From a virus, in the IMG/VR virus record IMGVR_UViG_3300020202_000163, positions 1 through 38,163 of that record: 38,163 nt of DNA; one strand, given 5' to 3'. Position numbers and translations under genes: made by a program. Numbering within the stretch: position 1 is the first letter of the stretch; each line of letters begins with the position of its first letter. Below the pieces are notes generated by a model. It was not told the DNA's origin. It searched no databases and saw only the letters and a program-made list of their open reading frames with translations. Below, one piece after another: positions 7,819 to 32,060 of this stretch.

Positions 7819-7958
7819 GAGCCGTACGAACCGACGCCGGGCGCGTCATCCGAAGGCAAGTGAGGTCACACTACGTGAAACGCTCGTCGATTTGTGTAGG
7901 CAATGTTCGATGGGCAACGGCTCGTGAGCAGTTGGCTAACAGGAGGCAGCATGCCTAA
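7815..7958 (+). CDS. Possible 47-residue Arg-rich peptide
   Basis: GTG 7815 overlaps the lipoprotein stop (GTGA), and the frame runs to TAA 7956-7958, overlapping the exonuclease start by 8 bp. The coupling on both sides resembles the real genes here, and it would fill an otherwise empty 132-bp gap. The peptide is basic and low in complexity, with no motif, so it may be chance. Confidence 0.3.
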   Translation: MRAVRTDAGRVIRRQVRSHYVKRSSICVGNVRWATAREQLANRRQHA

Positions 7959-8790
7959 GCCACAACTGCATTGGAGCCATGTCTCATTATTGATGAAGTG
8001 CGGGATTCAGTATGAGTTCCGCTATGTCAAAGGCATGCGCCGGCCGCCGGGCGTCGCTGCTCACATCGGCGGGGGGACCCACAAAGGCGTTGAAGTGAAC
8101 ATGCTTCACGTCAAGGAAAAGCGCGAACTGCTGCCCGAGGACGCCGTCGCTGAAGCCGCGCGCGACGAGGTGAACCGAAGGTTTGCAGACGACGGTGTCA
8201 TGCTCGAAGGCGATGAGGTCAGCGTCGGGCTCGACACGATCAAGGGCGAGGCGGTCGATACTGCCGTCACGCTGGCGAAGCTGCACCGCAACGTTCTAGC
8301 GCCGAGCATCCAGCCCGTTCACGTTGAACGGAAGTGGGTTATCGAGCTTCCCGATCAGCCGTTCGACCTCAGCGGGACGATCGACCTGCAGGAGCCGGAC
8401 CGAATTCGCGACACGAAGACCGCGGCGAAGTCGCCGAACGCAGAGGCCGCGCACAACTCCGACCAGCTCAGCTTTTACGCGCTGGCTGCGCTGGTTCACG
8501 ACAAGCAGTTGCCGAAGTTGCAGCTCGATTACCTCGTGAAGACGAAGACACCGAAGGTCGTGACACTGGAGACCGAGCGCAGCCGCGAAGATCTCACGAT
8601 CGTCGTTCGCAGGCTCCAGGTCGTGATGTCGAGCATACAGACGGGCGTGTTCTTGCCCGCTCCGCAGGATTCTTGGGTCTGCACTCGGAAGTTTTGTGGG
8701 TGGTTCGACATGTGTCCGTACTCGCGGAAGCGCGTGACAGTCGCGGCGGGAATTGATGAGGTTCTACAGGCTAAGGAGATCACACGATGA
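7951..8790 (+). CDS. PD-(D/E)XK nuclease (RecB/Cas4-like phage exonuclease)
   Basis: This 279-residue protein has AGGAGG 5 bases before ATG 7951. It has the order expected of a PDDEXK_1-type nuclease: an N-terminal SHVSLLMKCGIQYEFRYVKG helix, a GTHKGVE segment, then DLSGTIDLQ and RDTKTAAKSP, where GxxD and DxK form the metal site, and SDQLSFYALAA, the QhxxY motif. Near the C-terminus CTRKFCGWFDMC, together with the N-terminal Cys, could hold an iron-sulphur cluster as in AddB and Cas4. It overlaps the RecT gene by ATGA, so it should act as the 5'-3' exonuclease that makes single strands for annealing. Confidence 0.88.
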   Translation: MPKPQLHWSHVSLLMKCGIQYEFRYVKGMRRPPGVAAHIGGGTHKGVEVNMLHVKEKRELLPEDAVAEAARDEVNRRFADDGVMLEGDEVSVGLDTIKGEAVDTAVTLAKLHRNVLAPSIQPVHVERKWVIELPDQPFDLSGTIDLQEPDRIRDTKTAAKSPNAEAAHNSDQLSFYALAALVHDKQLPKLQLDYLVKTKTPKVVTLETERSREDLTIVVRRLQVVMSSIQTGVFLPAPQDSWVCTRKFCGWFDMCPYSRKRVTVAAGIDEVLQAKEITR

Positions 8791-9848
8791 CGACGGCACT
8801 GGCAGAAGCGCCGAAGGCGCAGGGCACGAGCCTTATCGCGACGCTCGCAGGTCAGTACGGGCTCGCTCCGAAGGCGTTCGAGGAAACGATCCGCAAGACG
8901 GTCATGCCGTCGGCGACGACGAACGAGGAGTTCTGTGCGTTCCTCCTGGTCGCGCACAAATACAACCTCAACCCGATCACGCGCGAGATCTACGCGTTTC
9001 CGAAGAAGGGCGGCGGAATTCAGCCCATCGTCGGAGTTGACGGCTGGATGAATCTGGTCAACTCACACCCGGCTTTCGACGGCGTCGAGTTCGAAGACGA
9101 CTGGGGTAAGGACGGCGACGCAAAGGCACACCTCAAGTCGGTCACGTGCAAGATGTATCGGAAGGACCGCTCACGGCCGATCGTTGTCACAGAGTACCTG
9201 AGCGAATGCCGCCGGGACACGGAGCCGTGGCGCAACTGGCCATCGCGGATGCTCCGTCACAAGGCTTACATTCAGTGCGCTCGCGTGGCGTTCGGCTTCT
9301 CTGGCATCGTGGACGAGGACGAGTTCGAGCGTCAGGTCGTGAGCGTTGCCCAGGAGCGCAAGGCGGTCGAACGCGCTGCGCTCAATATCGAGGACCTCAA
9401 GCCGGCCGACCCGGCTGCACACGTCGCGGTGAGTGAACCGACGGGCCCGGTCAAGGCCGCTGAACCGGCCGCTGCGCCCGTTCCTGAGGCCGCCACAGAG
9501 CCCGCGAAGGTCGAGGCGCCTGCAACCACCCCAGCCGCCGAAGTGCTGCCACCGAAGCCGCCACGCGGCCGCAAGGCGCTCACGACGCCGACGGCTGAAC
9601 CCGCACCGGCTGCGGCGCCTGCACCGGCTGCTGAGCCGACTGTCGATCACTGGACGGGCAGCATCGCGACCGTGCTCAGCATCGGCCAGGGGAAGCACAA
9701 GGCCACGTCGAAGGACAACGACGTGTTTTACACGGACGACGCGAAGGTCGCGGAGTTCCTCAAGGCATCGATTCAGAAGTACGACGTAGGGATCACGTAC
9801 ACGGAGAAAGACGGCCGCTGGCACATCGTCAAGGCCGAGAACATCTGA
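8787..9848 (+). CDS. RecT/Bet-family single-strand annealing protein
   Basis: This 353-residue protein has AAGGAG 8 bases before ATG 8787. The core (about residues 30-195) carries the Bet/RecT signature NLNPITREIYAFPKKGG.IQPIVGVDGW and later RMLRHKAYIQCARVAFGF. It anneals complementary single strands produced by the upstream exonuclease. A long Ala/Pro-rich linker (about residues 215-285) joins a small C-terminal domain (DHWTGSIATVLSIGQGKHKA to the end) that is not part of the usual 250-270-residue core. That extra domain may bind single-stranded DNA or a host SSB-like partner, which is inference. Confidence 0.9.
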   Translation: MTTALAEAPKAQGTSLIATLAGQYGLAPKAFEETIRKTVMPSATTNEEFCAFLLVAHKYNLNPITREIYAFPKKGGGIQPIVGVDGWMNLVNSHPAFDGVEFEDDWGKDGDAKAHLKSVTCKMYRKDRSRPIVVTEYLSECRRDTEPWRNWPSRMLRHKAYIQCARVAFGFSGIVDEDEFERQVVSVAQERKAVERAALNIEDLKPADPAAHVAVSEPTGPVKAAEPAAAPVPEAATEPAKVEAPATTPAAEVLPPKPPRGRKALTTPTAEPAPAAAPAPAAEPTVDHWTGSIATVLSIGQGKHKATSKDNDVFYTDDAKVAEFLKASIQKYDVGITYTEKDGRWHIVKAENI

Positions 9849-9947: not shown

Positions 9948-10199
9948 ATGACAGCCAACACGAAGGTAACGCGCGCGCTGAAGAAGCTCGAAGCGGTGCA
10001 CGGCTGGGAGGGGCTCGTCGAGGTCTGGATCGACAAGTACGGCATCCAACGAATCGAGTGCAAGTACCGGCTCGATTCTGACCCGCAAGACAGGGAGTTC
10101 CGGTCGCACTGCGTTGTCGAACGGATGAACACGAAGGTGACGGACGCCGAACTCATGATCGAGTTCGCGGACAAATGCGTCGAAGGGCTGGAAGACTGA
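9948..10199 (+). CDS. Small phage protein, unknown, behind structured leader
   Basis: This is an 83-residue protein from ATG 9948, with GAGAGGA 8 bases upstream. A GTG at 9909 in frame would start inside the predicted RNA structure. It is a compact alpha/beta protein (ALKKLEAVHGWEGLVEVWIDKYG, then an acidic helix at the end) with no known motif. It sits between the annealing protein and the RusA resolvase, and its stop overlaps the RusA start, so a role in phage recombination or replication is likely but not shown. Confidence 0.7.
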   Translation: MTANTKVTRALKKLEAVHGWEGLVEVWIDKYGIQRIECKYRLDSDPQDREFRSHCVVERMNTKVTDAELMIEFADKCVEGLED

Positions 10200-10699
10200 T
10201 GAGCATCGAGGTTTGGGTCTCTGGCGTTCCGACTCCGCAGCCGCGCGCGAAAGCATCCTCTCGTGGCGGTCATGTGCGCATGTACACGCCTTCGACGTTC
10301 ATCTCTAAGAAGAACGGCATCGAGCAACGGGTGACGCACCCCATCGTCGCATGGAAGAACGCTCTGAGGGATGCGTTGAGGCCGGTCGCGCCTTCCGTTC
10401 CGTGGGAGGGGCCCGTCCGCGTTGACCTCACGTTCATCATGCCCAGGCCGCAGGCTCTGATGCGGAAGAAGGACCCAGACGCGCCGATCTACTGCGGACG
10501 CAAGCCGGACCGTGACAACCTCGACAAAGTGGTCCTCGACGTATTGACGGAGTTGAAGTTCTGGCTCGACGACGGGCAGGCCGCCGCGGGTGAAATCTCG
10601 AAGCTCTATCACGCGAAGACATCAGGCGAGCCGGGTGCGCGAATTCGGCTGACGCCGTTGGCTGAGGCTGCGCTCGGACGCGTGGCGATGGAGATTTGA
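10199..10699 (+). CDS. RusA-family Holliday junction resolvase
   Basis: This is a 166-residue homodimeric endonuclease that cuts four-way junctions. The RusA pattern is clear: N-terminal VSGVPTPQPRAKASSRGG strand and loop, KPDRDNLDKVVLDVL, where the Asp residues bind Mg2+, and FWLDDGQ with the further catalytic Asp pair. An insertion of about 30 residues with HVRMYTPSTF and NGIEQRV lies in the N-terminal half. The start ATG 10199 shares one base with the previous stop (TGATG). It would resolve the intermediates made by the nearby exonuclease and RecT protein. Confidence 0.9.
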   Translation: MSIEVWVSGVPTPQPRAKASSRGGHVRMYTPSTFISKKNGIEQRVTHPIVAWKNALRDALRPVAPSVPWEGPVRVDLTFIMPRPQALMRKKDPDAPIYCGRKPDRDNLDKVVLDVLTELKFWLDDGQAAAGEISKLYHAKTSGEPGARIRLTPLAEAALGRVAMEI

Positions 10700-14542: not shown

Positions 14543-15200
14543 GCGGATGCCGCTCTCTAAGCTGAAGCCGGCGGCGTACAACCCGCGGCAGATCAGCGAC
14601 GGAGCCATGTCCGGCCTGAAGGCGTCGCTCAAACGCTTCGGACTGGTGCAGCCGCTCGTGCTCAACAAACGCACGGGCAATCTGGTCGGCGGTCATCAGC
14701 GATACAAGGCGCTGGTCGATCAGGGCGTCAAGGAGGCCGACGTCGTCGTCGTGGATCTTCCAGAGACGGAAGAAAAGGCGCTCAACATGACGCTGAACAA
14801 CCCCGAGATACAGGGCGAGTTCACCGCGGGCGCGCTCGACATCCTCGCATCGATCGAGATGGACGCGCCGGACCTCGCGGACGACACGCTGTTGTCGACG
14901 CTGAAGAAGACGCTCGGCGCCGAAGACTTCGAGACCGACGGCGCGGAGGAAGGCGACGACAAACCCGTCGAGGGTGAGAAGACGATCCCCGAGATGGAGC
15001 TCAAGCCATTCGAGCACTTCGACTACATCCTCGTGGTCGCGAACAACGTTCAGGACTGGAACTATCTCTGCGAGCGGCTGGGCATCGCGAAGGTTGACGC
15101 GACGGTCGCGGGGCTGGCGAAGAAAGTCAGGAAGATCGGTCTCGGGCGGGCGATCTACGCGAGCAAGCTGGTCGAGCTGCTGGAGGGCAAACCGAAATGA
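14517..15200 (+). CDS. ParB-like nuclease-domain protein
   Basis: This is a 227-residue protein with GAGGAG before GTG 14517. Residues 10-100 are a ParB/Srx-type domain: LSKLKPAAYNPRQISD, LKASLKRFGLVQPLVLNKR and NLVGGHQRYKALVDQGV. The GGHQR box is the nucleotide-binding motif of this fold. An acidic linker (TDGAEEGDDKPVEGEK) joins a C-terminal domain (FEHFDYILVVANNVQDWNYL) seen in many phage ParB-like proteins. Such genes often accompany phage DNA methyltransferases or terminases. The only methyltransferase trace here is the remnant at 12016. Confidence 0.85.
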   Translation: MSINQHEIKRMPLSKLKPAAYNPRQISDGAMSGLKASLKRFGLVQPLVLNKRTGNLVGGHQRYKALVDQGVKEADVVVVDLPETEEKALNMTLNNPEIQGEFTAGALDILASIEMDAPDLADDTLLSTLKKTLGAEDFETDGAEEGDDKPVEGEKTIPEMELKPFEHFDYILVVANNVQDWNYLCERLGIAKVDATVAGLAKKVRKIGLGRAIYASKLVELLEGKPK

Positions 15201-15568
15201 CCACTCCCGCCCTTCCCGCGCCGCTGCCGCCGAGATGCGAGCTAATAAAGCGCAAGAGCATCAACGGCCATAAGGTCCAAGTGCTTGAGGTTGAAGGCGT
15301 ATTTGAAGTCGTGCTCTCTGATTTCAAATGCTGGCAAGGTTGGGACAGCAAACTAGCCAAGCGGTTGCGCCCGCTAATCGGAGCATACTTCGCAGAGGCT
15401 TGGAGTGCCGAGTATCGGCGATGCAACAAACACGTTTGGAAATGGTACGGCGAATCCCGAAGCGAATGCGCTAAGTGGGAGCGAAAAACGCGAGCCGCTT
15501 GTGCTGCCAGTGACGCTTGGCGCTCGTGGTCCCGTCAGGCAGAGGCGAAGGAGGGAGGCGAGAGATGA
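15197..15568 (+). CDS. Small array protein, unknown
   Basis: This is a 123-residue protein, start ATG 15197 coupled to the ParB-like gene, with GGAGGG 9 bases upstream. The N-terminal PAPLPPRCE segment recurs in the protein at 15917, and the C-terminal WSRQAEAKEGGER recurs at 16213-16513. The middle is unique, with many Trp and Lys (CWQGWDSKLAKRLRP). It is the first of a series of small genes with shared ends. No function can be assigned. Confidence 0.7.
   Translation: MTTPALPAPLPPRCELIKRKSINGHKVQVLEVEGVFEVVLSDFKCWQGWDSKLAKRLRPLIGAYFAEAWSAEYRRCNKHVWKWYGESRSECAKWERKTRAACAASDAWRSWSRQAEAKEGGER
15531..15549 (+). repeat. Array 3'-end repeat A, copy 1
   Basis: CCCGTCAGGCAGAGGCGAA, at the end of the first array gene. 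Identical 19-mers occur at 16224-16242 and 16476-16494. This copy and the third continue in near identity through GGAGGGAGGCGA(G/A)AGATGA, so the repeat supplies the C-terminus, the ribosome site and the next start. Confidence 0.85.
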
Positions 15569-15750
15569 AAGAGAACGAAGCTAACGACATGCGCTGCATC
15601 GCCAGCGAAATCATCATCAAGCTTATGGAGGCGGGCCAATGGGAGCAGCTTTGGCTACTTCAGCGGCACGCGACTAGTGCGCTGGAGCGAAAGCCGAAAG
15701 AGATTGAGCTTTTTGCCGCTCGCCAGCACGGGGAGGGCGGGAAGCGGTGA
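15565..15750 (+). CDS. Small array protein, unknown
   Basis: This is a 61-residue helical protein (MRCIASEIIIKLMEAGQWEQ) with start ATG 15565 coupled to the previous stop and AGGGAGG just upstream. Its last residues, ARQHGEGGKR, lie in repeat B and are nearly the same as the end of the gene at 16510. Unknown function. Confidence 0.65.
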   Translation: MKENEANDMRCIASEIIIKLMEAGQWEQLWLLQRHATSALERKPKEIELFAARQHGEGGKR

Positions 15751-15751
15751 G
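15721..15751 (+). repeat. Array 3'-end repeat B, copy 1
   Basis: A 31-bp block covering the C-terminus, stop and next GTG start. It matches 16657-16687 with one mismatch. Key part: GGGGAGGGCGGGAAGCGGTG. Confidence 0.8.
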
Positions 15752-15920
15752 CAGAGACATCTACAAGCACACGCTGGCCACTGGGCCCGTTAGCCAAGTT
15801 TACGGTATTCCAGTCGAATACGGACGCGGTGGCGGATGCGGGCATTATGGCTGCCGCATTTGTTATCCACGAAAGCGCGTTCATCCACCACGTGACAAGT
15901 ACGACAAGGAGCCCGCATGA
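15747..15920 (+). CDS. 57-residue Cys-rich mini-protein
   Basis: GTG 15747 overlaps the upstream stop (GTGA) inside repeat B, and the frame ends at TGA 15918-15920, overlapping the next ATG. The peptide contains GGGCGHYGCRICYPRKR: three Cys and a His within nine residues, suited to bind zinc or another metal. Both ends are coupled to neighbours, which supports a real gene. Function unknown. Confidence 0.55.
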   Translation: MSRDIYKHTLATGPVSQVYGIPVEYGRGGGCGHYGCRICYPRKRVHPPRDKYDKEPA

Positions 15921-15938
15921 CCCCGACCCCACCCGCGC
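15912..15938 (+). repeat. Array 5'-end repeat C, copy 1
   Basis: This 27-bp block around the ATG at 15917 is identical to 16791-16817 and encodes the opening MTPTPPA in both genes. The following bases (15932-15956) also match 15215-15239 with one mismatch, linking three gene starts. Confidence 0.85.
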
Positions 15939-16258
15939 CGCTGCCGCCGAGGTGCGCGTTCATCTACGAACACGGTGGCGAGCACTTCAGCGTGTTACCC
16001 GGCGAGAACCTTGGCGCTCCACTCGATTGGGAGCATGAACGAAAGTCGCCAAAAGCTCTGACGCGCCGTGAGGTTGTCGGTGCGTGCGTTGCAATGGCGT
16101 GGCTGGACGAAGCAGAGCAGCGAAACGCTCGCATGTACGCCACCGACGACGAAGACGAGAATATCACGCTTTACGAGCTAGCCGAAGAGGCATACGCGCA
16201 CGCCGCCGCTTGGCGTCGCTGGTCCCGTCAGGCAGAGGCGAAATCAAAGGAGGAATAA
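15917..16258 (+). CDS. Small array protein, unknown
   Basis: This is a 113-residue protein, ATG 15917 in repeat C. Its N-terminus MTPTPPAPLPPRC is shared in parts with the proteins at 15197 and 16796, and its C-terminus RRWSRQAEAK is shared with the protein at 15197. The central part (REVVGACVAMAWLDEAEQ, then a Tyr/Glu/Asp-rich helix) is unrelated, so the gene looks like a new core between borrowed ends. Unknown function. Confidence 0.7.
   Translation: MTPTPPAPLPPRCAFIYEHGGEHFSVLPGENLGAPLDWEHERKSPKALTRREVVGACVAMAWLDEAEQRNARMYATDDEDENITLYELAEEAYAHAAAWRRWSRQAEAKSKEE
16224..16242 (+). repeat. Array 3'-end repeat A, copy 2
   Basis: Identical 19-mer to 15531-15549. Beyond it the sequence differs but still gives AAAGGAGG before the next gene. 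Confidence 0.8.
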
Positions 16259-16261
16259 GTT

Positions 16262-16513
16262 ATGGGCGAATTACTGACTTGGATGTGGGATGGACAGAAG
16301 CGCGTTCTAAAGGCATTGCTGCCCGATCCGTACCGAATCGAAATTGAGAAGCAGCGCGGGCCAGCGGACGAGGAGAAGTGGGAAGTCTTCACCGTCGTCA
16401 ATAACCGGATTGCTGGCGAATACTTCGAGTGTCTTCACGATGCCATGAACTATGCCCAGCGTTTCTATACTCAAGCCCGTCAGGCAGAGGCGAAGGAGGG
16501 AGGCGAAAGATGA
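16262..16513 (+). CDS. Small array protein, unknown
   Basis: This is an 83-residue protein from ATG 16262 with AAAGGAGG 8 bases upstream, in the tail of the previous gene. It begins with a Trp-rich amphipathic helix and ends in QARQAEAKEGGER, encoded by repeat A. The pattern EKWEVFTVVNNRIAGEYFECLHDAMNYAQRF resembles small phage proteins with a short beta sheet and helix. Function unknown. Confidence 0.65.
   Translation: MGELLTWMWDGQKRVLKALLPDPYRIEIEKQRGPADEEKWEVFTVVNNRIAGEYFECLHDAMNYAQRFYTQARQAEAKEGGER
16476..16494 (+). repeat. Array 3'-end repeat A, copy 3
   Basis: Identical 19-mer to 15531-15549. The match with copy 1 continues through the ribosome site to the next ATG (16510). Confidence 0.85.
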
Positions 16514-16686
16514 TCGAGCGATTCTGGCAAGCATTGAACACGTCCAGACTAAACCGGAGCATCATTGACGACGTAATTTTAATCGGCGGTGTGCTTACGA
16601 TCATTGCCGCCATAGCGGGCATTGGCATTCTTTATCTTTGGTTGGCCGGGAAAGTTCGCCAGCGCGGGGAGGGCGGGAAGCGGTGA
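16510..16686 (+). CDS. Small membrane protein of the array
   Basis: This 58-residue protein has start ATG 16510 coupled to the previous stop. One membrane segment is clear (VILIGGVLTIIAAIAGIGIL, continuing YLWLAG), with a short N-terminal helix and a basic tail VRQRGEGGKR encoded by repeat B. Possible roles such as a holin-like or exclusion peptide are only suggested by size and topology. Confidence 0.6.
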   Translation: MIERFWQALNTSRLNRSIIDDVILIGGVLTIIAAIAGIGILYLWLAGKVRQRGEGGKR

Positions 16687-16687
16687 G
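16657..16687 (+). repeat. Array 3'-end repeat B, copy 2
   Basis: One mismatch in 31 bp with 15721-15751. It again spans the end of one gene and the GTG start of the next. Confidence 0.8.
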
Positions 16688-16784
16688 TAAGCACGAATAC
16701 GACATCGGACAGAATCTAGGTTGCGCATTGATGACCATCGCCGTGTGTGCGGTGCTAATCGTGGCAATCATCTACAGTCACTAG
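16683..16784 (+). CDS. 33-residue membrane peptide
   Basis: GTG 16683 overlaps the upstream stop (GTGA), and the frame ends at TAG 16782-16784. After a short hydrophilic start it is one hydrophobic helix (LMTIAVCAVLIVAIIYS). A coupled start and a well-formed membrane segment support a real micro-protein, but it is too short to be sure. Confidence 0.45.
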   Translation: MSKHEYDIGQNLGCALMTIAVCAVLIVAIIYSH

Positions 16785-16790
16785 GAGCCA

Positions 16791-16817
16791 CCCGCATGAC
16801 CCCGACCCCACCCGCGC
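16791..16817 (+). repeat. Array 5'-end repeat C, copy 2
   Basis: Identical over 27 bp to 15912-15938, around the ATG at 16796. Confidence 0.85.
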
Positions 16818-17095
16818 GGAGCGAGGCAAGAACCGAAGGGGAGACAATCAGCCTCACGACCGCGAGCACGAATGATGTGACTCCGTGGCCGGTGATTCGC
16901 CTTGAGTGCATCAAGAGCCTTGGCTACGCGATGATGTACATGGAGTATCTGCATCCCGACGTGAACTTTGAAGGGCAGCGCGAAGCTGTCGAAGGGCTTT
17001 GCGAAGAATTGCACCGGAACCGCAATCTGGACTGCCAAGCGTATTGGCAGCACTTCAAGGAAGTCATCGACAACGAAATCGAGAACATGTGCTAG
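16796..17095 (+). CDS. Small array protein, unknown
   Basis: This is a 99-residue protein from ATG 16796 with AGGAG upstream. The first seven residues MTPTPPA come from repeat C. A disordered stretch follows, then a helical domain (ALGYAMMYME-like segment, EGQREAVEGLCEELHR, then FKEVIDNEIENMC). No family is recognised. Confidence 0.65.
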   Translation: MTPTPPARSEARTEGETISLTTASTNDVTPWPVIRLECIKSLGYAMMYMEYLHPDVNFEGQREAVEGLCEELHRNRNLDCQAYWQHFKEVIDNEIENMC

Positions 17096-17111
17096 CGGAG
17101 GCCCGCGCCCA

Positions 17112-17354
17112 ATGACCACGCAGGGGAAGAGCGTTGAAGACCGTGAGCGACTGATAAGCCTGCTCTCGGAGAGCCTGATTGAAATGGTTGCGCAGCATTG
17201 TACGTCCGGTGCTGCTGGCAAGCTGGACAGCATGTCTCTATCTGCGAACGCACGAGCAATGAGACTGCTCGCCAGCTTGGGGCATCTGAAGGTGACGGCT
17301 GAATATGGCCGTCGCGTGATGGCTGAATGGAACGACACGGAGGCCCGCCCATGA
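17112..17354 (+). CDS. Small helical array protein, unknown
   Basis: This is an 80-residue protein from ATG 17112, with GCGGAGG about 11 bases upstream. It looks all-helical (ERLISLLSESLIEMVAQHC, ANARAMRLLASLGHLKV). Its stop overlaps the next ATG. Function unknown. Confidence 0.65.
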   Translation: MTTQGKSVEDRERLISLLSESLIEMVAQHCTSGAAGKLDSMSLSANARAMRLLASLGHLKVTAEYGRRVMAEWNDTEARP

Positions 17355-17584
17355 GCGACGCAGCGCCAGAATTGAAACCATTACCAGACCACGGCGATTT
17401 GATGCCGTTCGCCGATTGGCTGGAGTCTGTGAACGACGGCTTCTTCATCGACTACGACGGCCACGGCCACATGGCTACCAAAGACGGCTATAGCCCCAAG
17501 CACCCCGTCTATCCTTCACAATGGAAGAATAAAGTCGAACGCTGGCCTGCATGGGCAACACACGTGGTTTGGTACAACCGATAG
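17351..17584 (+). CDS. Small array protein, unknown
   Basis: This is a 77-residue protein, ATG 17351 coupled to the previous stop. It opens MSDAAPE; the same ATGAGCGACGCAGCG start is used by the gene at 17596. The body is rich in Trp, Tyr, His and Asp (FFIDYDGHGHMATKDGY). Function unknown. Confidence 0.65.
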   Translation: MSDAAPELKPLPDHGDLMPFADWLESVNDGFFIDYDGHGHMATKDGYSPKHPVYPSQWKNKVERWPAWATHVVWYNR

Positions 17585-17595
17585 GAGCTAGACGC

Positions 17596-17775
17596 ATGAG
17601 CGACGCAGCGAAGCGAAAGCGCCGTCGAATCAGCCGCGCAACCGCCATCGCGCTTTATCTCAAGGGCTGCACCGTCCTCGGACCCGACCGCAAAGAACTC
17701 AAGAACTACTTCGACATTCCGAAACGCGGACCTTTTTATTTCCCAGAACAGGAGCCTTACGAACGTGAGCGATAA
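17596..17775 (+). CDS. Small basic array protein, unknown
   Basis: This is a 59-residue protein, ATG 17596 with TAGGAGC upstream. It opens MSDAAKRKRRR and is strongly basic, so it may bind nucleic acid. It overlaps the next gene by 11 bp. Confidence 0.6.
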   Translation: MSDAAKRKRRRISRATAIALYLKGCTVLGPDRKELKNYFDIPKRGPFYFPEQEPYERER

Positions 17776-18043
17776 GAGCGACGCAGCGAAGCAGGAGCGT
17801 TACTACACGGTCCACGACAGCGGCAATGACATGTATCTGATCGTGGACCGCAAGCACGAGGAATGTATCGCCACGTGCGTGAATCAGTGCCACGCGAATA
17901 CCCTTGCTGGCGTGCTCAACGACTATGAGCCAATGCGCGATGGACTGGAGTGGTACGCAAAGCCAGAGAGTTACGTCGAAGACGGCGAAGACTGGAAACT
18001 CGCCAAGGCCATCATCCACGAACGCCCGAGGAGACAGCTATGA
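17765..18043 (+). CDS. Small array protein, unknown
   Basis: This is a 92-residue protein, GTG 17765. It opens MSDKSDAAKQE, and its GCAGCGAAGCAGGAGC stretch (17783-17798) is repeated at the start of the next gene (18046-18061). The centre has CIATCVNQCHA, and the rest suggests a small alpha/beta domain (YYTVHDSGNDMYLIVDR). Coupled to the next ATG. Function unknown. Confidence 0.65.
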   Translation: MSDKSDAAKQERYYTVHDSGNDMYLIVDRKHEECIATCVNQCHANTLAGVLNDYEPMRDGLEWYAKPESYVEDGEDWKLAKAIIHERPRRQL

Positions 18044-19599
18044 GCGCAGCGAAGCAGGAGCAGCAGGTGCCGGTTGACATCTTACGAAACGCATTGCAGG
18101 AGATTCGCAACAGCGCGCACCGCCATAGCGCGTGGTGGGCTTCAGAATTGGCTGTTAAGGCACTGACGGAATACTCGCACGCCGCCGCCCACTGCGCCGC
18201 AGAGCAGCAGCAACACATCTGTGGACTGGAAGGCTTTAACCCAGCTGTCGATACGTGCCGTGGCTGTGCACACAAGAAAGGAAGCCATGTACTGCAAAGC
18301 GTGCCCAAACCGGAAGTGCGCGGATTGCCCGACAGTGCCGTGGTATCGACAACTGATTCGACACCTGCACGAGATTCACTGGAACTTCCACAGGCGAGCC
18401 AAGGGCATGATGAACCGCACGATGCCAAAGCCGGAGAAGTGAAAGAGAACTTGCGCGAACTGGAAATCATCATCGACAGGGTGACAGACGGGCGCGAACG
18501 TGATGAGTGCTTCCAGCTAATCGACGCGATCCGTGCGCGCCTCGCCGCAGAGCAGCAGTTGGTCCCGATCTCAGACAAGACGATGCTCCAAGCCGCCGAG
18601 ATGGACAAGACTGCATTGCGCCAGCAGGTTGCCCGCCTTGAGGATGAGGCATCAATGCTGCGGCAAACGGTAAAGCGCCTCGCCGCAGAGCAGGGGCGAG
18701 AGCGGGAAAGCACAATCGTCGGCAGCAAAGTCATTTCAAAGCCTGGAGCGGCAATAGAAGTGACACAGATAAAGCTTTCCGAGAAAGCGCGGCGAGCATT
18801 GACGACGTGTGCACCGCTGATTCCCGCCGCCCGCCCCGCCTCGCCCGAAGCGGAGCAGAAGGCAAAAAACGGCGTGTCATGTACGTGCGAATCTCCAATA
18901 CCAATACTCGGACTATTTAAGCACGAGCCGGAGCAATTCCGCTGCGCTCGATGCCAACGTGTTACGGACGCTGAGCCAGTCGGCTGCTGCGAGAGTGACA
19001 AGCATGACTTTAACGCCTTATCGGGTGAGTTGGAGTGTCGCAAGTGCGGATACAAGCCGTATCTCGACAAGCCGCCCGAAACGACGCATGAGCTTGGGCG
19101 AAATGTCTGTGATCCCGAGGACAAATCGCATCCACCCAAGGCTATCGGGATAGCTTCATCGCCCGCCCCTGACATCGCGCGGCTGAGGGAGCTGCTGACG
19201 AGAATCACCGAAGGCCCGTGGAGCCGAGAATACCTGCCGCGTCCATACACGGGCGCTCGTGTTGTCGGGCCAGAAGAGGCCGATGGTGTTGAAGAGTCGT
19301 GCAAGGTCGTCGTCGCGGAGCACTCCAGCGCATTCGACGCAGAGTTTATCGCGCTATCGCGTGTCGCCGTCCCATACTTTCTGGCGCACCTGGAGCTGGT
19401 TGAGCGAGAAAACAATCAATTTAGACAGGATTATGCCGCCCTGCTCGAGCGGCTGGAGAGGGCGGAGACGTTGCTGAAAGACATCTGGGCGCTGAAGCCT
19501 GATGTTCGCACCCACGAGAAGGAATGCGAGATGGGAAAGTTTAACGAGGACTGCATCACGTGCTGTGTCCGTAAGGCTCTTGGATGGGAGTGGAAGTAA
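18040..19599 (+). CDS. Large Ea22-like mosaic protein
   Basis: This 519-residue protein seems to be assembled from several small modules. A helical start (residues 1-55) is followed by a Cys/His pair (CGLEGF..TCRGC), a low-complexity part, a coiled-coil region with three AAEQ blocks (about residues 50, 168 and 214), two zinc-ribbon-like parts (FRCARC; ELECRKCGYK) and then an Ea22-like domain (LRELLTRITEGPW, DAEFIALSRVAVPYFL), the kind seen in lambda Ea22. A Cys-rich end (CEMGKFNEDCITCC) closes it. Ea22-like proteins are accessory phage proteins of unknown role. Start ATG 18040 overlaps the previous stop. The stretch 18287-18442 also reads well in another frame, so part of this frame may not be native. 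Confidence 0.65.
   Translation: MSAAKQEQQVPVDILRNALQEIRNSAHRHSAWWASELAVKALTEYSHAAAHCAAEQQQHICGLEGFNPAVDTCRGCAHKKGSHVLQSVPKPEVRGLPDSAVVSTTDSTPARDSLELPQASQGHDEPHDAKAGEVKENLRELEIIIDRVTDGRERDECFQLIDAIRARLAAEQQLVPISDKTMLQAAEMDKTALRQQVARLEDEASMLRQTVKRLAAEQGRERESTIVGSKVISKPGAAIEVTQIKLSEKARRALTTCAPLIPAARPASPEAEQKAKNGVSCTCESPIPILGLFKHEPEQFRCARCQRVTDAEPVGCCESDKHDFNALSGELECRKCGYKPYLDKPPETTHELGRNVCDPEDKSHPPKAIGIASSPAPDIARLRELLTRITEGPWSREYLPRPYTGARVVGPEEADGVEESCKVVVAEHSSAFDAEFIALSRVAVPYFLAHLELVERENNQFRQDYAALLERLERAETLLKDIWALKPDVRTHEKECEMGKFNEDCITCCVRKALGWEWK
18287..18442 (+). CDS. Nested 51-residue zinc-finger-like frame
   Basis: Inside the Ea22-like gene, in another frame, ATG 18287 is preceded by AAGGAAG and opens MYCKACPNRKCADCPTVPWY, then HLHEIHWNFHRRAKGM. 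Four Cys and later His residues are well spaced for a zinc site, and the peptide looks more protein-like than the host frame at the same place. It may be a real nested gene, or the mark of two frameshifts in an older fused gene. Confidence 0.45.
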   Translation: MYCKACPNRKCADCPTVPWYRQLIRHLHEIHWNFHRRAKGMMNRTMPKPEK

Positions 19600-19896: not shown

Positions 19897-20658
19897 ATGA
19901 AACCAGGTATCACGATAATCATTCCATCCCGAAAACGTGCACAGAACATTCCGCACACGCTCGAGCTGCTGCCGTCGGCTCTGATCCTCGTGGACGAGTG
20001 CGAGAAAGCCGACTACGCGCGAGTCGTGCCGAAGGGCCAGCTCATCACGCATCCGGGGCTGAACTGCATTTCAAAGATCAGGAACTTCGCCCTCGACGCG
20101 GCAAAGACAGAGTGCGTCGTCATGAGCGACGATGACCTGAGCTGCGTGCGCGCGCTGGTCGGTCGCACTCAACGCAAGATCGTCGAGCCGGAGGCTATCC
20201 ACGCGATTCTGTGGTCGGCGTACATGTGTACGCGTGATCTCGGGCTCTCGCTGTTTTCGTTCTGCCGTGACGCGCGCTGGGCGATCATGAAGTACCTGCC
20301 GCACGACCCGTACAGCCTCAACGGTCCGGCCGCGGGATGCTTCGGAGTCATCGGCCGTAGGGTAAGATTCAACGAGGAACTGATCACACGCGAGGACGTA
20401 GACCTCACGCTGCAATCGCTGCTGAAGGACAGAATCACGCTCCACGATCGGCGCTTTTATTTCGACTACGGCCGCACGTGGCACGGCGCAGGCGGGAACC
20501 AGGGACGACGGACAAAGGCGAACGAGGCCGCGGACCTGAAGACAGTGAAAGACCGCTGGGGGGCGTACGTCAGTTTCAGCAATAAGGAACACGGCGACAA
20601 CGCTTCAATGTCGGTGCGCGTACCACGTAAGAACAAGGAACTCACGGACTGCTACTGA
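19897..20658 (+). CDS. GT-A glycosyltransferase, TET-associated-like
   Basis: This 253-residue protein has GGAGGGG before ATG 19897. It opens with ITIIIPSRKRAQNIPHTLEL and VDECEKADYA, then RNFALDAAKTECVVMSDDDLS, where the DDD should bind metal and a sugar nucleotide. Later GCFGVIGRRVRFNE and TREDVDLTLQSLLKDRI complete the pattern. This order recalls the TET-associated glycosyltransferase (TAGT) family of phages, predicted to add sugars to modified bases in DNA. No thymine or cytosine hydroxylase is visible in the window, so the acceptor is uncertain and could be protein or surface sugar. It lies just before the terminase genes. Confidence 0.7.
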   Translation: MKPGITIIIPSRKRAQNIPHTLELLPSALILVDECEKADYARVVPKGQLITHPGLNCISKIRNFALDAAKTECVVMSDDDLSCVRALVGRTQRKIVEPEAIHAILWSAYMCTRDLGLSLFSFCRDARWAIMKYLPHDPYSLNGPAAGCFGVIGRRVRFNEELITREDVDLTLQSLLKDRITLHDRRFYFDYGRTWHGAGGNQGRRTKANEAADLKTVKDRWGAYVSFSNKEHGDNASMSVRVPRKNKELTDCY

Positions 20659-23471: not shown

Positions 23472-23493
23472 TTCTAAATTTCCATTAGTAGCA
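23472..23493 (+). repeat. 22-bp motif before late genes, copy 1
   Basis: This begins TTCTAAATTTCC and continues ATTAGTAGCA. It matches 25585-25606 with two mismatches. Each copy lies in a gap of the late operon, 43-45 bp before the next start codon. The AT-rich run stands out from the GC-rich surroundings. Confidence 0.7.
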
Positions 23494-23536
23494 GCGAAGC
23501 CTTGCGCACGTTCCGTTGTCTGGCTCTACTGCGCGC

Positions 23537-25584: not shown

Positions 25585-25606
25585 TTCTAGTTTTCCATTA
25601 GTAGCA
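25585..25606 (+). repeat. 22-bp motif before late genes, copy 2
   Basis: This begins TTCTAGTTTTCC and continues ATTAGTAGCA, directly after the portal stop and 45 bp before the capsid fusion start. A shorter echo, CTCCATTAAATG, lies at 25632-25643. Confidence 0.7.
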
Positions 25607-25651
25607 CCGACCCATTCCTTTTTTCTCGAAGTCTCCATTAAATGCGCGGGC

Positions 25652-27910
25652 ATGAAGAAACCCGCGCCGCAAAAACCACAGCCGAACGATCCGCGCTACA
25701 CGGACCGCAAGAAAGGCGGCATCCGCACGCGCAACAGCGATCACAACGGCACGCGGCAGCATCGTTTCCTGAGCCTCGACAAGCGGTCGATCAACGAGAA
25801 GGACCGCACGCTCGAGGTCAGCTTCTCAAGCGAGTGTCGCGAGGTTCCCTGTTACGACTGGGATCTTGGCGAGGTTCCCGAAGTCCTAAGCCATGCCGAC
25901 GGGGCGGTCGATCTTTCGCCGTTCGTGTCAGCCGGCAGCGTCCTTCGGAATCACAACTCCAACGAACCGATTGCAGTCCCGGTCGATGCCCGCATTGATG
26001 TATCTACGAAGCGCGGCAAGGCGATCATTCACTTTCCCGCGGGAGACCCAGACAGCGAACGCGCCTGGAATCAGGTGCGCTCGGGGCTCTTGCGCGGCGT
26101 GTCCGTCGGCTACGAGGTTCTCACCTCGGAAAAAGTCCCCGCCGGGCGCGAGTCGTCTCAGGGTCACGCTGGTCCGTGCATCGTCGCGACCAAGTGGCGT
26201 GTCCATGAGATTTCACTGACTCCTGTTCCAGCCGATTCGTCCGTGGGTGTCGGGCGCGGCAAACACAACACACCCCCCAACAAGGAGAATGCCATGCCCG
26301 TCGATCCGAAAATCATCCGCGCGATGGTCCGCAGTGCCGGTCTCAACGCCGAGTACGCCGAGGACCTCATCAAGCGCAACCTCACGAGCATCGACGAGGT
26401 CGAGGCCCTGATCTCGAAGGAACGGGAGAAAGTCAACGCCAGCACGCGCGCGAAGCGCGAGGACGAAGGCGCCGACGACAACACCAAGAAAGACGACGAC
26501 GAAGAGGACGAGGAGGAACGCTCCGCTCCGAAGTCGAAGCAGCGCAAGAAGGGCGCGGACCATGTCGCCCAGGAGCGCGAGCGCCAGAAGCAGATTCGCG
26601 CGGCCGTCCGCGCGGCCAAGCTCGGGGAGGACGTCGCTGACGACCTCTGCGAGCGCGACGTGTCCATCGAAAAAGCCCGCGAGATCGTGCTCGCGAAGCT
26701 CGCCGAGAATGACCATCAGGCGCTGGTTGACGGCGGCCGCGGCCGCTCGATCGAGGTCGGCGCCGGAGCCAACGAGAAGCGCATGCGCAGCTTCGAAGCC
26801 AACATCGCGCGCCGCGCGGGTGTGGCCGGCAACGACGACTACAAAGGCGTCGAGCAGGAGCATTACACGCTGATCGGCGTCGCGCGCGAGTATCTGCGCA
26901 TGATCGGTGTTCCGGGCGTGAACCAGATGAGCAACGACATCGTTGCCCGCGAGATCTTCAACCCGCGCAACAAGTTCCGTGCGGCCGCGGCGAATGCCAC
27001 GGGCGACCTCGCGAGCTTGTTCGCGAACATCCAGAACAAGGCCCTGATTCGCGCCTACAACATGGCGCAGCCCACGTGGCGCAAGTGGTGCAAGAAGGGA
27101 AGCCTGAGCGACTTCAAGTTGGCGAAGCGCATCCAGCTCACAGACTTCGCCCAGCTCCGCGAGACCGGCGAAAACGGCGAGATCTTCGACAGCAAGATCG
27201 CGGACCGCGGCGAGAACATCCAGCTCGCGTACTACGCGCGCTCGATTTCGTTCACGTGGCAGATGTTCGTGAACGACGACCTCGACGCGCTCAGCTCGCT
27301 CCCGGCGTGGATGGGCAAGAGCGCCGCGCAGCTCCCGAGCCGGTTGGTGTATGCGCACCTGCTGGCAAACCCGACGATGGGCGACGGCGTCGCGCTGTTC
27401 CACGCGGCGACCCACGGCAACCTCGAGACGGGTGCCGGGTCGAACCTCGACGACAGCAACAAGGTCGCCGCGCTGAAGGCCGCCATCAAGGCGTTCCGCA
27501 AGCAGACGGCTCCGCAGGCTCCGAACGACACCGCGTTCGCGGCCGAAGCGATCGACATCGAGCCGCGCCTGCTGCTGGTGCCGCCTGAACACGAGTACGC
27601 GGCTTACCAGCTCGTGAACCCGAACCTGTACGTTGCTGAAACGCAGTTCTTCAAGGGCAAGTTCGACATCGCCGTCGAGCCGCGCCTCAGCAACACCGGG
27701 TACACCGGCTACAGCCTCACGGCGTGGTACCTCACCACGACGCCAGATCAGGCCGACATCATGGAAGTCGCCTTCCTGGACGGCAACGAAGCGCCGCGGA
27801 GCGATTCGTGGGAAGACTTCGATCGTCTCGCGCTGCGCTACCGCGCGATTCTGCCGTGCGGCGTGAAGGCGCTGGATTGGCGCGGAATCGTCAAGTCCGC
27901 GGGCGCGTAA
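25652..27910 (+). CDS. Fused prohead protease and major capsid protein
   Basis: This is a 752-residue fusion. Residues about 30-205 are an HK97-type prohead protease: VLRNHNS with catalytic His101, LLRGVSVGYEV with Ser151, and HEISLTPVPAD. Residues about 215-400 are charged and helical, with an Asp/Glu block (DDDEEDEEE), as expected for a scaffold or delta domain. The rest is an HK97-fold capsid domain resembling Mu gpT (RIQLTDFAQLRETGENGEIFD and LAYYARSISFTWQMFVNDDLD). The protease should process the scaffold and release itself. An internal ATG at 26294 with AAGGAG 6 bases upstream, in frame, would make the capsid part alone. The true start at 25652 has no strong ribosome site. Confidence 0.9.
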   Translation: MKKPAPQKPQPNDPRYTDRKKGGIRTRNSDHNGTRQHRFLSLDKRSINEKDRTLEVSFSSECREVPCYDWDLGEVPEVLSHADGAVDLSPFVSAGSVLRNHNSNEPIAVPVDARIDVSTKRGKAIIHFPAGDPDSERAWNQVRSGLLRGVSVGYEVLTSEKVPAGRESSQGHAGPCIVATKWRVHEISLTPVPADSSVGVGRGKHNTPPNKENAMPVDPKIIRAMVRSAGLNAEYAEDLIKRNLTSIDEVEALISKEREKVNASTRAKREDEGADDNTKKDDDEEDEEERSAPKSKQRKKGADHVAQERERQKQIRAAVRAAKLGEDVADDLCERDVSIEKAREIVLAKLAENDHQALVDGGRGRSIEVGAGANEKRMRSFEANIARRAGVAGNDDYKGVEQEHYTLIGVAREYLRMIGVPGVNQMSNDIVAREIFNPRNKFRAAAANATGDLASLFANIQNKALIRAYNMAQPTWRKWCKKGSLSDFKLAKRIQLTDFAQLRETGENGEIFDSKIADRGENIQLAYYARSISFTWQMFVNDDLDALSSLPAWMGKSAAQLPSRLVYAHLLANPTMGDGVALFHAATHGNLETGAGSNLDDSNKVAALKAAIKAFRKQTAPQAPNDTAFAAEAIDIEPRLLLVPPEHEYAAYQLVNPNLYVAETQFFKGKFDIAVEPRLSNTGYTGYSLTAWYLTTTPDQADIMEVAFLDGNEAPRSDSWEDFDRLALRYRAILPCGVKALDWRGIVKSAGA
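26282..26296 (+). promoter_or_regulatory. Internal ribosome site and start within the capsid fusion
   Basis: AAGGAG (26282-26287) stands 6 bases before an in-frame ATG (26294), exactly at the junction after the protease domain. Initiation here gives a 538-residue scaffold-capsid protein. It is a better ribosome site than that of the full-length start, so the short form may be the main product. Confidence 0.75.
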
Positions 27911-31785: not shown

Positions 31786-32060
31786 TCCTCGCGGTGTTCT
31801 TGCTGCCGGTCTATGTGCTGGCGTTCATGGTCGGGATGCTGAGCAACGCCGTTCGTGGCGGTGCGAAAGATCATCCCGCGGACGCTTTGCCGGTCGAACA
31901 CGACACGATCAATCAGCCGGACCACGTCGTACACGCGCGCGTGATGCAGGCGCTCTATGAGCCGCAGAACACATTCACGCCGTCGAAGGAATCGCCCGAG
32001 GAGTGGGAGGCACGCAGGAAGGCAGAACGAGACAAGGCGCTCGCCGCTCTGCGCAACTGA
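31767..32060 (+). CDS. Small N-terminal membrane protein, unknown
   Basis: This is a 97-residue protein from GTG 31767, with GGAGGG 6 bases upstream; GTG 31764 is an alternative. One membrane segment opens the chain (LLRLILAVFLLPVYVLAFMV), and the remainder is hydrophilic with a Glu/Lys/Arg-rich helix at the end. It could be part of the tail-tip or entry apparatus, or of lysis. Confidence 0.6.
   Translation: MYLLRLILAVFLLPVYVLAFMVGMLSNAVRGGAKDHPADALPVEHDTINQPDHVVHARVMQALYEPQNTFTPSKESPEEWEARRKAERDKALAALRN

Follow-up and report, generated by a model that had tools for sequence, protein, structure and literature searches.

Known repeats at phage gene boundaries

Several described systems place short repeats at the ends of unrelated or exchangeable genes, and we compared them with an array of 13 tightly packed genes (positions 15197-19599, + strand) in the virus record IMGVR_UViG_3300020202_000163. 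This record is a single sequence of 38,163 bp, taken here at its full length as the window, and the host of the array is a tailed phage of the temperate type. The closest known systems are the conserved boundary sequences of lambdoid phages and of Island3/Brujita, in which short homology lies at the ends of unrelated genes, and gene gain, loss and swapping are explained by general recombination (PMC3029335). For example, Island3 gp67 and gp68 have common 3' ends, and Brujita holds a recombinant single copy (PMC3029335). Copies within one genome, as in the window, are found in Island3 and at eaF/eaD of P22. The array is a rich variant of this known 'short conserved boundary sequence' mosaicism: near-identical junction sequences recur in it above chance, with non-homologous genes beyond them. 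It differs in having several block types, a repeated block order and some relic tails, which are untranslated remains of a block peptide behind a foreign stop codon and record what was replaced.

The start-associated elements SAS and ESAS of cluster K mycobacteriophages (PMC3203893) likewise consist of a repeat with a ribosome site where unrelated non-structural genes begin. A single 13-bp consensus defines SAS, and its 11-19 copies mostly precede genes with a spacing of >50 bp (PMC3203893). In the window, by contrast, there are several unrelated blocks that include the upstream coding tail, and the genes overlap; neither a single consensus (GGGATAGGAGCCC) located 3-7 bp before many starts, nor genes mostly >50 bp apart with occasional 17-bp inverted repeats, were found in the array. 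In the P22 ea region, which contains the Ead/Ea22-type accessory genes eaF and eaD, a 26-nucleotide (nt) block is present at two successive starts, but this is a single start block whose tail is short, and ordered multi-block sets were not seen in P22. Cultured Rhodobacter capsulatus phages of the RcC cluster carry a block of tail, ribosome site and ATG at successive genes, with one or two genes between them present or absent, although only one block type occurs at that place and its sequence is unrelated to the blocks of the window. Integron cassettes are also small genes exchanged between repeated elements; however, the blocks of the window are coding and lack attC-like hairpins, and no integrase was found to be associated with them or encoded beside the array, the tyrosine recombinases of the window being ~13 kb away. 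Integron-like sites were rejected because the blocks contained no hairpins. We found no description of ordered multi-block sets in the open-licence literature.

Repeated blocks at the gene junctions of the array

The array lies between a ParB-like gene and a glycosyltransferase gene, and its genes either overlap, mostly by ATGA or GTGA, or are at most 16 bp apart. The original prediction for this DNA had listed recurring blocks at the gene ends, namely block A three times, block B twice, block C twice plus a related start, and ATGAGCGACGCAGCG-type starts; all of these were recovered where it had placed them, although one copy of block A is partial. Its claim that the blocks join the stop, the ribosome site and the next start is also borne out by the anatomy of the junctions, as each block covers the C-terminal tail of one gene, the stop codon, the ribosome site and the start of the next gene.

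All block copies are on the + strand. Block A copy 1 (15531-15573) comprises the tail of gene g1, the ribosome site and the start of g2, and copy 3 (16476-16518) comprises the tail of g5, the ribosome site and the start of g6; the two copies share 31 nt exactly and are 93% identical over 43 nt. The partial copy 2 (16220-16242) is restricted to the coding tail, without the ribosome site, and its 23 nt match copy 1 exactly, while 19 nt (16224-16242) match copy 3 exactly. Block B copy 1 (15720-15751) contains the tail of g2, which ends in GEGGKR and a stop codon, together with the ribosome site and the GTG of g3; it is 97% identical over 32 nt to copy 2 (16656-16687), with 23 nt exact. The two copies of block C are identical (27/27): copy 1 (15912-15938) holds the coding tail of g3, KEPA and its stop codon, and the start of g4, and copy 2 (16791-16817) holds an in-frame relic tail, EPPA and a stop codon, located behind the TAG of g7 itself and followed by the start of g8. 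A C-like block (C') at the start of g1 (15203-15246) is 80% identical over 44 nt to block C. The ATGAGCGACGCAGCG-type starts are found at 17350, 17595 and 17776, and position 18040 has a shorter version. No consensus is common to blocks A, B and C and the SDAA start, which differ from one another in sequence.

We compared the number of exact repeat pairs of at least 15 nt within positions 15197-18061 with that in randomized sequences and in other stretches of the window. The array stretch contained nine such pairs with lengths of 15-31 nt, whereas 300 dinucleotide shuffles of the same stretch gave a mean of 0.007 and a maximum of one, and 55 of the 56 other stretches of equal length in the window contained none (the remaining one had a single repeat). 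Ranked by length over the full 38 kb, the top eleven exact repeats were all located within 15215-18700, that is, in the array or just downstream of it. The edges of the blocks are sharp: copies agree at 20/20 bases internally but mostly at 2-9/20 in the adjoining 20-base steps, so that no more than 20 nt beyond a block the identity is down to the chance level. With respect to the stop upstream, all copies of a block have the same codon phase. No hairpin or palindrome was detected in the six blocks tested. The repeated gene-end blocks in the array are thus real and not due to chance.

Order of the blocks and relationships among the genes

Along the DNA, the blocks follow the order (C')-A-B-C-A'-A-B-C, a repetition that went unmentioned in the original prediction. 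The first unit consists of g1 (15197-15568, 123 amino acids (aa)), running from C' to A and ending in WSRQAEAKEGGER and a stop codon, g2 (15565-15750, 61 aa), from A to B, and g3 (15747-15920, 57 aa), from B to C. The second unit consists of g4 (15917-16258, 113 aa), from C to A, g6 (16510-16686, 58 aa), from A to B, and g7 (16683-16784, 33 aa), from B to C, after which g8 (16796-17095, 99 aa) starts at C. The A-B spacing is similar in both units (189 and 180 nt). Between g4 and g6 lies g5 (16262-16513, 83 aa), an inserted gene bounded by the 19-nt direct repeats at 16224-16242 and 16476-16494; when these two A repeats were joined in silico, g5 was removed exactly and g4 gained the tail of g1, WSRQAEAKEGGER with its stop codon, in frame. 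This part of the array is therefore composed of two tandem three-gene units and one inserted gene.

The gene middles had been described as unrelated, which holds for g2/g6, g3/g7, g5 and g8, but not for g1 and g4. No similarity was found beyond the ends in g2/g6, g3/g7, g4/g8 or the body of g5; g8 shares with g4 the block C start (MTPTPPA), and its remainder is unrelated. In contrast, g1 and g4 are homologous, being diverged members of one family (P-x-P...AW..E....AWR.W) that is also present in the viral contigs L003 and L008. The C-terminal half of g4 is predicted to be mostly helical, and the fold modeled for the g1/g4 family (mean pLDDT 75) showed no significant structural match. Hydrophobic stretches, noted by eye in the sequence, suggest that g6 and g7 encode membrane proteins.

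Downstream of the two units, related ends continue to appear. The sequence GGAGGCCCGC is common to the g8/g9 and g9/g10 junctions, g9 being located at 17112-17354 (80 aa). Both g10 (17351-17584, 77 aa) and g11 (17596-17775, 59 aa) begin with a ATGAGCGACGCAGCG-type start block, and a read-on relic, ELDA and a stop codon, lies just before g11. An SDAAKQE start block opens g12 (17765-18043, 92 aa), and g13 (18040-19599, 519 aa) starts with SAAKQE. Searches of the array proteins against Pfam, PHROGs and PADLOC gave no function, except that g10 matched phrog_14149 (function unknown) and g13 had weak matches, including an Ead/Ea22-like region. The other members of phrog_14149 are found in large enteric myoviruses and roseophages (25 records). 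Related tail repeats, not reported in the original prediction, recur inside g13 at 18195, 18543 and 18675, with the internal tails CAAEQQQ, RLAAEQQ and RLAAEQG. As one long open reading frame (ORF) holding three such tail-like peptides (C/R-(L)AAEQ), g13 may have formed by fusion of small genes that had this tail in common.

Junction blocks in other phages and viral contigs

In the Rhodobacter capsulatus phage RcKemmy, two junction blocks were found at 31925 and 32238 (record L012). We aligned RcKemmy, which has 10 listed relatives, with RcSwan, RcBaka, RcOceanus and RcMeacham, and determined the gene order at this place to be X-Y-Z-W in RcKemmy and RcSwan, X'-Z-W in RcBaka and RcOceanus, and X-W in RcMeacham. 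The other six RcC phages, which were not aligned, had coverages of 99% or 77-78%, which fits the X-Y-Z-W and X'-Z-W versions. At the X/W junction of RcMeacham, the left side matches the X/Y junction of RcSwan and the right side matches its Y/Z junction, exactly as expected from a crossover within the block; RcMeacham carries a recombinant block.

The 26-nt block of P22, CAGCCCAATGAGCAACATCGACAAAC, occurs at the starts of the successive genes eaF and eaD (positions 15482-15507 and 15838-15863 of record L021). A 38-nt query across this block matched 91 phage records, in which the genes at the match bear various names, including EaD, EaF, EaE, EaA, an HNH endonuclease, a DUF262 protein and a putative DNA-binding protein. 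As for the other phages compared, no exact repeat of at least 16 nt was found in lambda between 19 and 48.5 kb, and GTE2 and Pd_22F showed no repeats at gene junctions. The RcD phages, reported to be repeat-rich, were set aside, as their repeats are mostly intergenic and of another sort.

Through the g4 family we reached the viral contig L008, which is unrelated to the window phage and has blocks of its own, in the order D3-D4-D1 twice with different genes between them. The first copy of D3 is coding sequence and closes a RusA-like gene with YGVEIRIEAREA and a stop codon (the gene was named by eye and had no Pfam match), and in the second copy the D3 sequence remains behind the TAG of another gene (RusA-like tail GVEIRIEAR). 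Similarly, D4 is coding in copy 2 (IHKRE and a stop codon), its copy 1 being a relic that follows a foreign TAG, and copies 1 and 2 of D1 form a relic reading TPEKDVHRVDPLTPEKE and a stop codon behind a foreign TAA. The relic of the window at block C copy 2 is milder than these. Shorter start repeats of a like sort were found in L003, which is distantly related by its terminase (49%). The contigs L002 and L007 were dropped as a comparison set because they are the same virus as L003/L006 (100% over 9.5 kb). In another viral contig, L005, a CRISPR-like array was observed at 8044-8663, with about eight 36-nt repeats (GTTTCAACACCCGGCTCGCCGGGCCAAAAGCGAGAG and variants) at a spacing of ~73 nt.

Interpretation of the repeated blocks

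The array is probably a mosaic of accessory genes produced at gene junctions by ordinary recombination, homologous or annealing, with selection keeping translation intact. In favor of this are the non-random repeats confined to the array, their sharp edges and uniform codon phase, the in-silico removal of g5, the block orders repeated in the window and in L008, the relic tails in both, the gene differences and recombinant block of the RcC phages, the P22 block and the published case of Island3/Brujita. Small neighboring genes lie end to end or overlap, so that the final 15-30 nt of a gene also contain the ribosome site and start of its successor. Recombinants with a new gene body but an intact junction would keep the downstream gene expressed and would survive best, and junctions kept in this way would outlive the genes that precede them. 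As such junctions spread, they could become multi-copy, in one genome or in a phage population, and provide short homology for the next exchange, in which homologous or annealing recombination would insert, delete or replace the gene lying between two copies. If two genomes had different genes at the same junctions, unequal exchange between them could then yield ordered tandem sets (A-B-C-A-B-C) in one step. By analogy with the RcC and P22-block phages, the array of the window may have arisen by the same process. It appears unlikely that phage populations go further and keep shared, ordered junction blocks as standing landing sites, selected for this role, at which accessory genes are traded via annealing recombination.

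Some observations count against the mosaic explanation. The original prediction anticipated different small genes between the same blocks in related phages, and such variation was seen in proxy phages, namely those of the RcC cluster and those with the P22 block; however, no close relative of the window phage was found among viral contigs (searched with terminase, ParB-like, array and core proteins and exact block patterns), genome contigs (terminase) or phages and plasmids (array DNA), so that variation of its own array was not seen. In addition, the changes among the RcC phages are unpolarised and could be either gain or loss, and the control phages are a small set picked by hand. Lambda, moreover, carries the RecT-family protein Beta and yet lacks such repeats in the stretch examined.

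The blocks might instead be functional start-associated elements, kept for translation or regulation and not for recombination. They do end at start codons and hold strong ribosome sites, and SAS is a published case (PMC3203893), but we regard this as improbable: block A copy 2 is shared within the coding tail only and is followed by a different ribosome site, A, B and C are too unlike one another to represent a common element, and identity reaches into C-terminal codons and includes relic tails without a coding role. The repeated block order, the similar A-B spacing and the true paralogy of g1 and g4 are also what would be expected if a three-gene segment had simply been duplicated in tandem and its middles had diverged rapidly without gene exchange. 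Nevertheless, with synonymous sites included, the copies of a block show 93-100% identity, whereas the bodies of g2/g6 and g3/g7 are dissimilar beyond their ends, and divergence alone gives neither sharp block edges nor relic tails behind foreign stops, which makes plain duplication decidedly unlikely.

The original prediction had favored a 'gene-capture platform', perhaps driven by the RecT system of the phage. In a dedicated system of this kind, phage-encoded machinery would recognize the blocks and insert small genes. The units are indeed exchangeable and have built-in expression signals, and the phage encodes RecT, an exonuclease, RusA and two tyrosine recombinases; however, the six blocks tested, unlike integron attC, form no hairpin or palindrome, block sequences vary among phages, no site-specific recombinase is tied to them, and the same pattern occurs without detectable RecT. 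We consider such a dedicated system very unlikely, and the original interpretation as a whole is only partly supported. Finally, a metagenomic contig misjoined at short repeats is conceivable for an IMG/VR-type record whose assembly was taken as deposited, but a misjoin uses existing repeats and cannot create them, all frames and junctions are intact, and the pattern recurs in P22 and in isolated phages of Rhodobacter; an assembly artefact is thus extremely unlikely.

With regard to the enzymes involved in the recombination that we propose, the window encodes a RecT-family annealing protein (8787-9848, + strand) adjoining a PD-(D/E)XK exonuclease (7903-8790, + strand), a RusA-type Holliday junction resolvase (10175-10699, + strand) and the two tyrosine recombinases (154-1260, + strand; 1453-2586, - strand). 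The exonuclease/RecT pair would be the candidate machinery, and a phage annealase such as RecT could plausibly perform the exchange. Matches of the RecT, Erf and Sak4 types are scattered among the block phages, in that P22 has Erf, L008 has a Sak4-like ATPase and RcKemmy and L003 have none of the three; RecT was undetected in all four of these phages with the same pattern. Since the pattern occurs in phages without detectable RecT and lambda has Beta but no repeats, RecT is on this evidence neither necessary nor sufficient. The comparison across phages does not favor it, and it is a plausible candidate driver only.

Other features of the window

The window also encodes a replication initiator, an AAA ATPase, the ParB-like protein and a gpA-type terminase. 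A tRNA-Ser(CGA) gene (1345-1433) is flanked by the two tyrosine recombinase genes, and positions 154-2586 may represent an attachment site region or a pair of integration modules. Downstream of the array, the glycosyltransferase (19897-20658) matches TAGT (TET-associated glycosyltransferase), which hints at DNA bases that are modified and glucosylated. In the late operon, a 26-nt repeat (88%), TTCTA..TTTCCATTAGTAGCA.CGA, was observed at 23472-23497 and 25585-25610, shortly past two stop codons and before the genes at 23516 and 25652; it is possibly a regulatory or processing site. The latter gene (25652-27910) is one 752-aa ORF in which a major head protein is fused with a maturation protease.

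Implications for phage mosaicism

These observations bear on the old question of whether mosaicism arises via homologous recombination at boundary sequences or via illegitimate recombination filtered by selection. Arrays of this kind display many boundaries together and in order, with relic tails recording the genes that were replaced. The RcC phages provide a ready test system, in which the presence or absence of a single gene can be scored at a 25-nt block, and the matches to the P22 block form a large natural data set on gene exchange at junctions. The proposed explanation also offers a simple rule, namely that the tail of a gene would be retained for its role as the start signal of the following gene.

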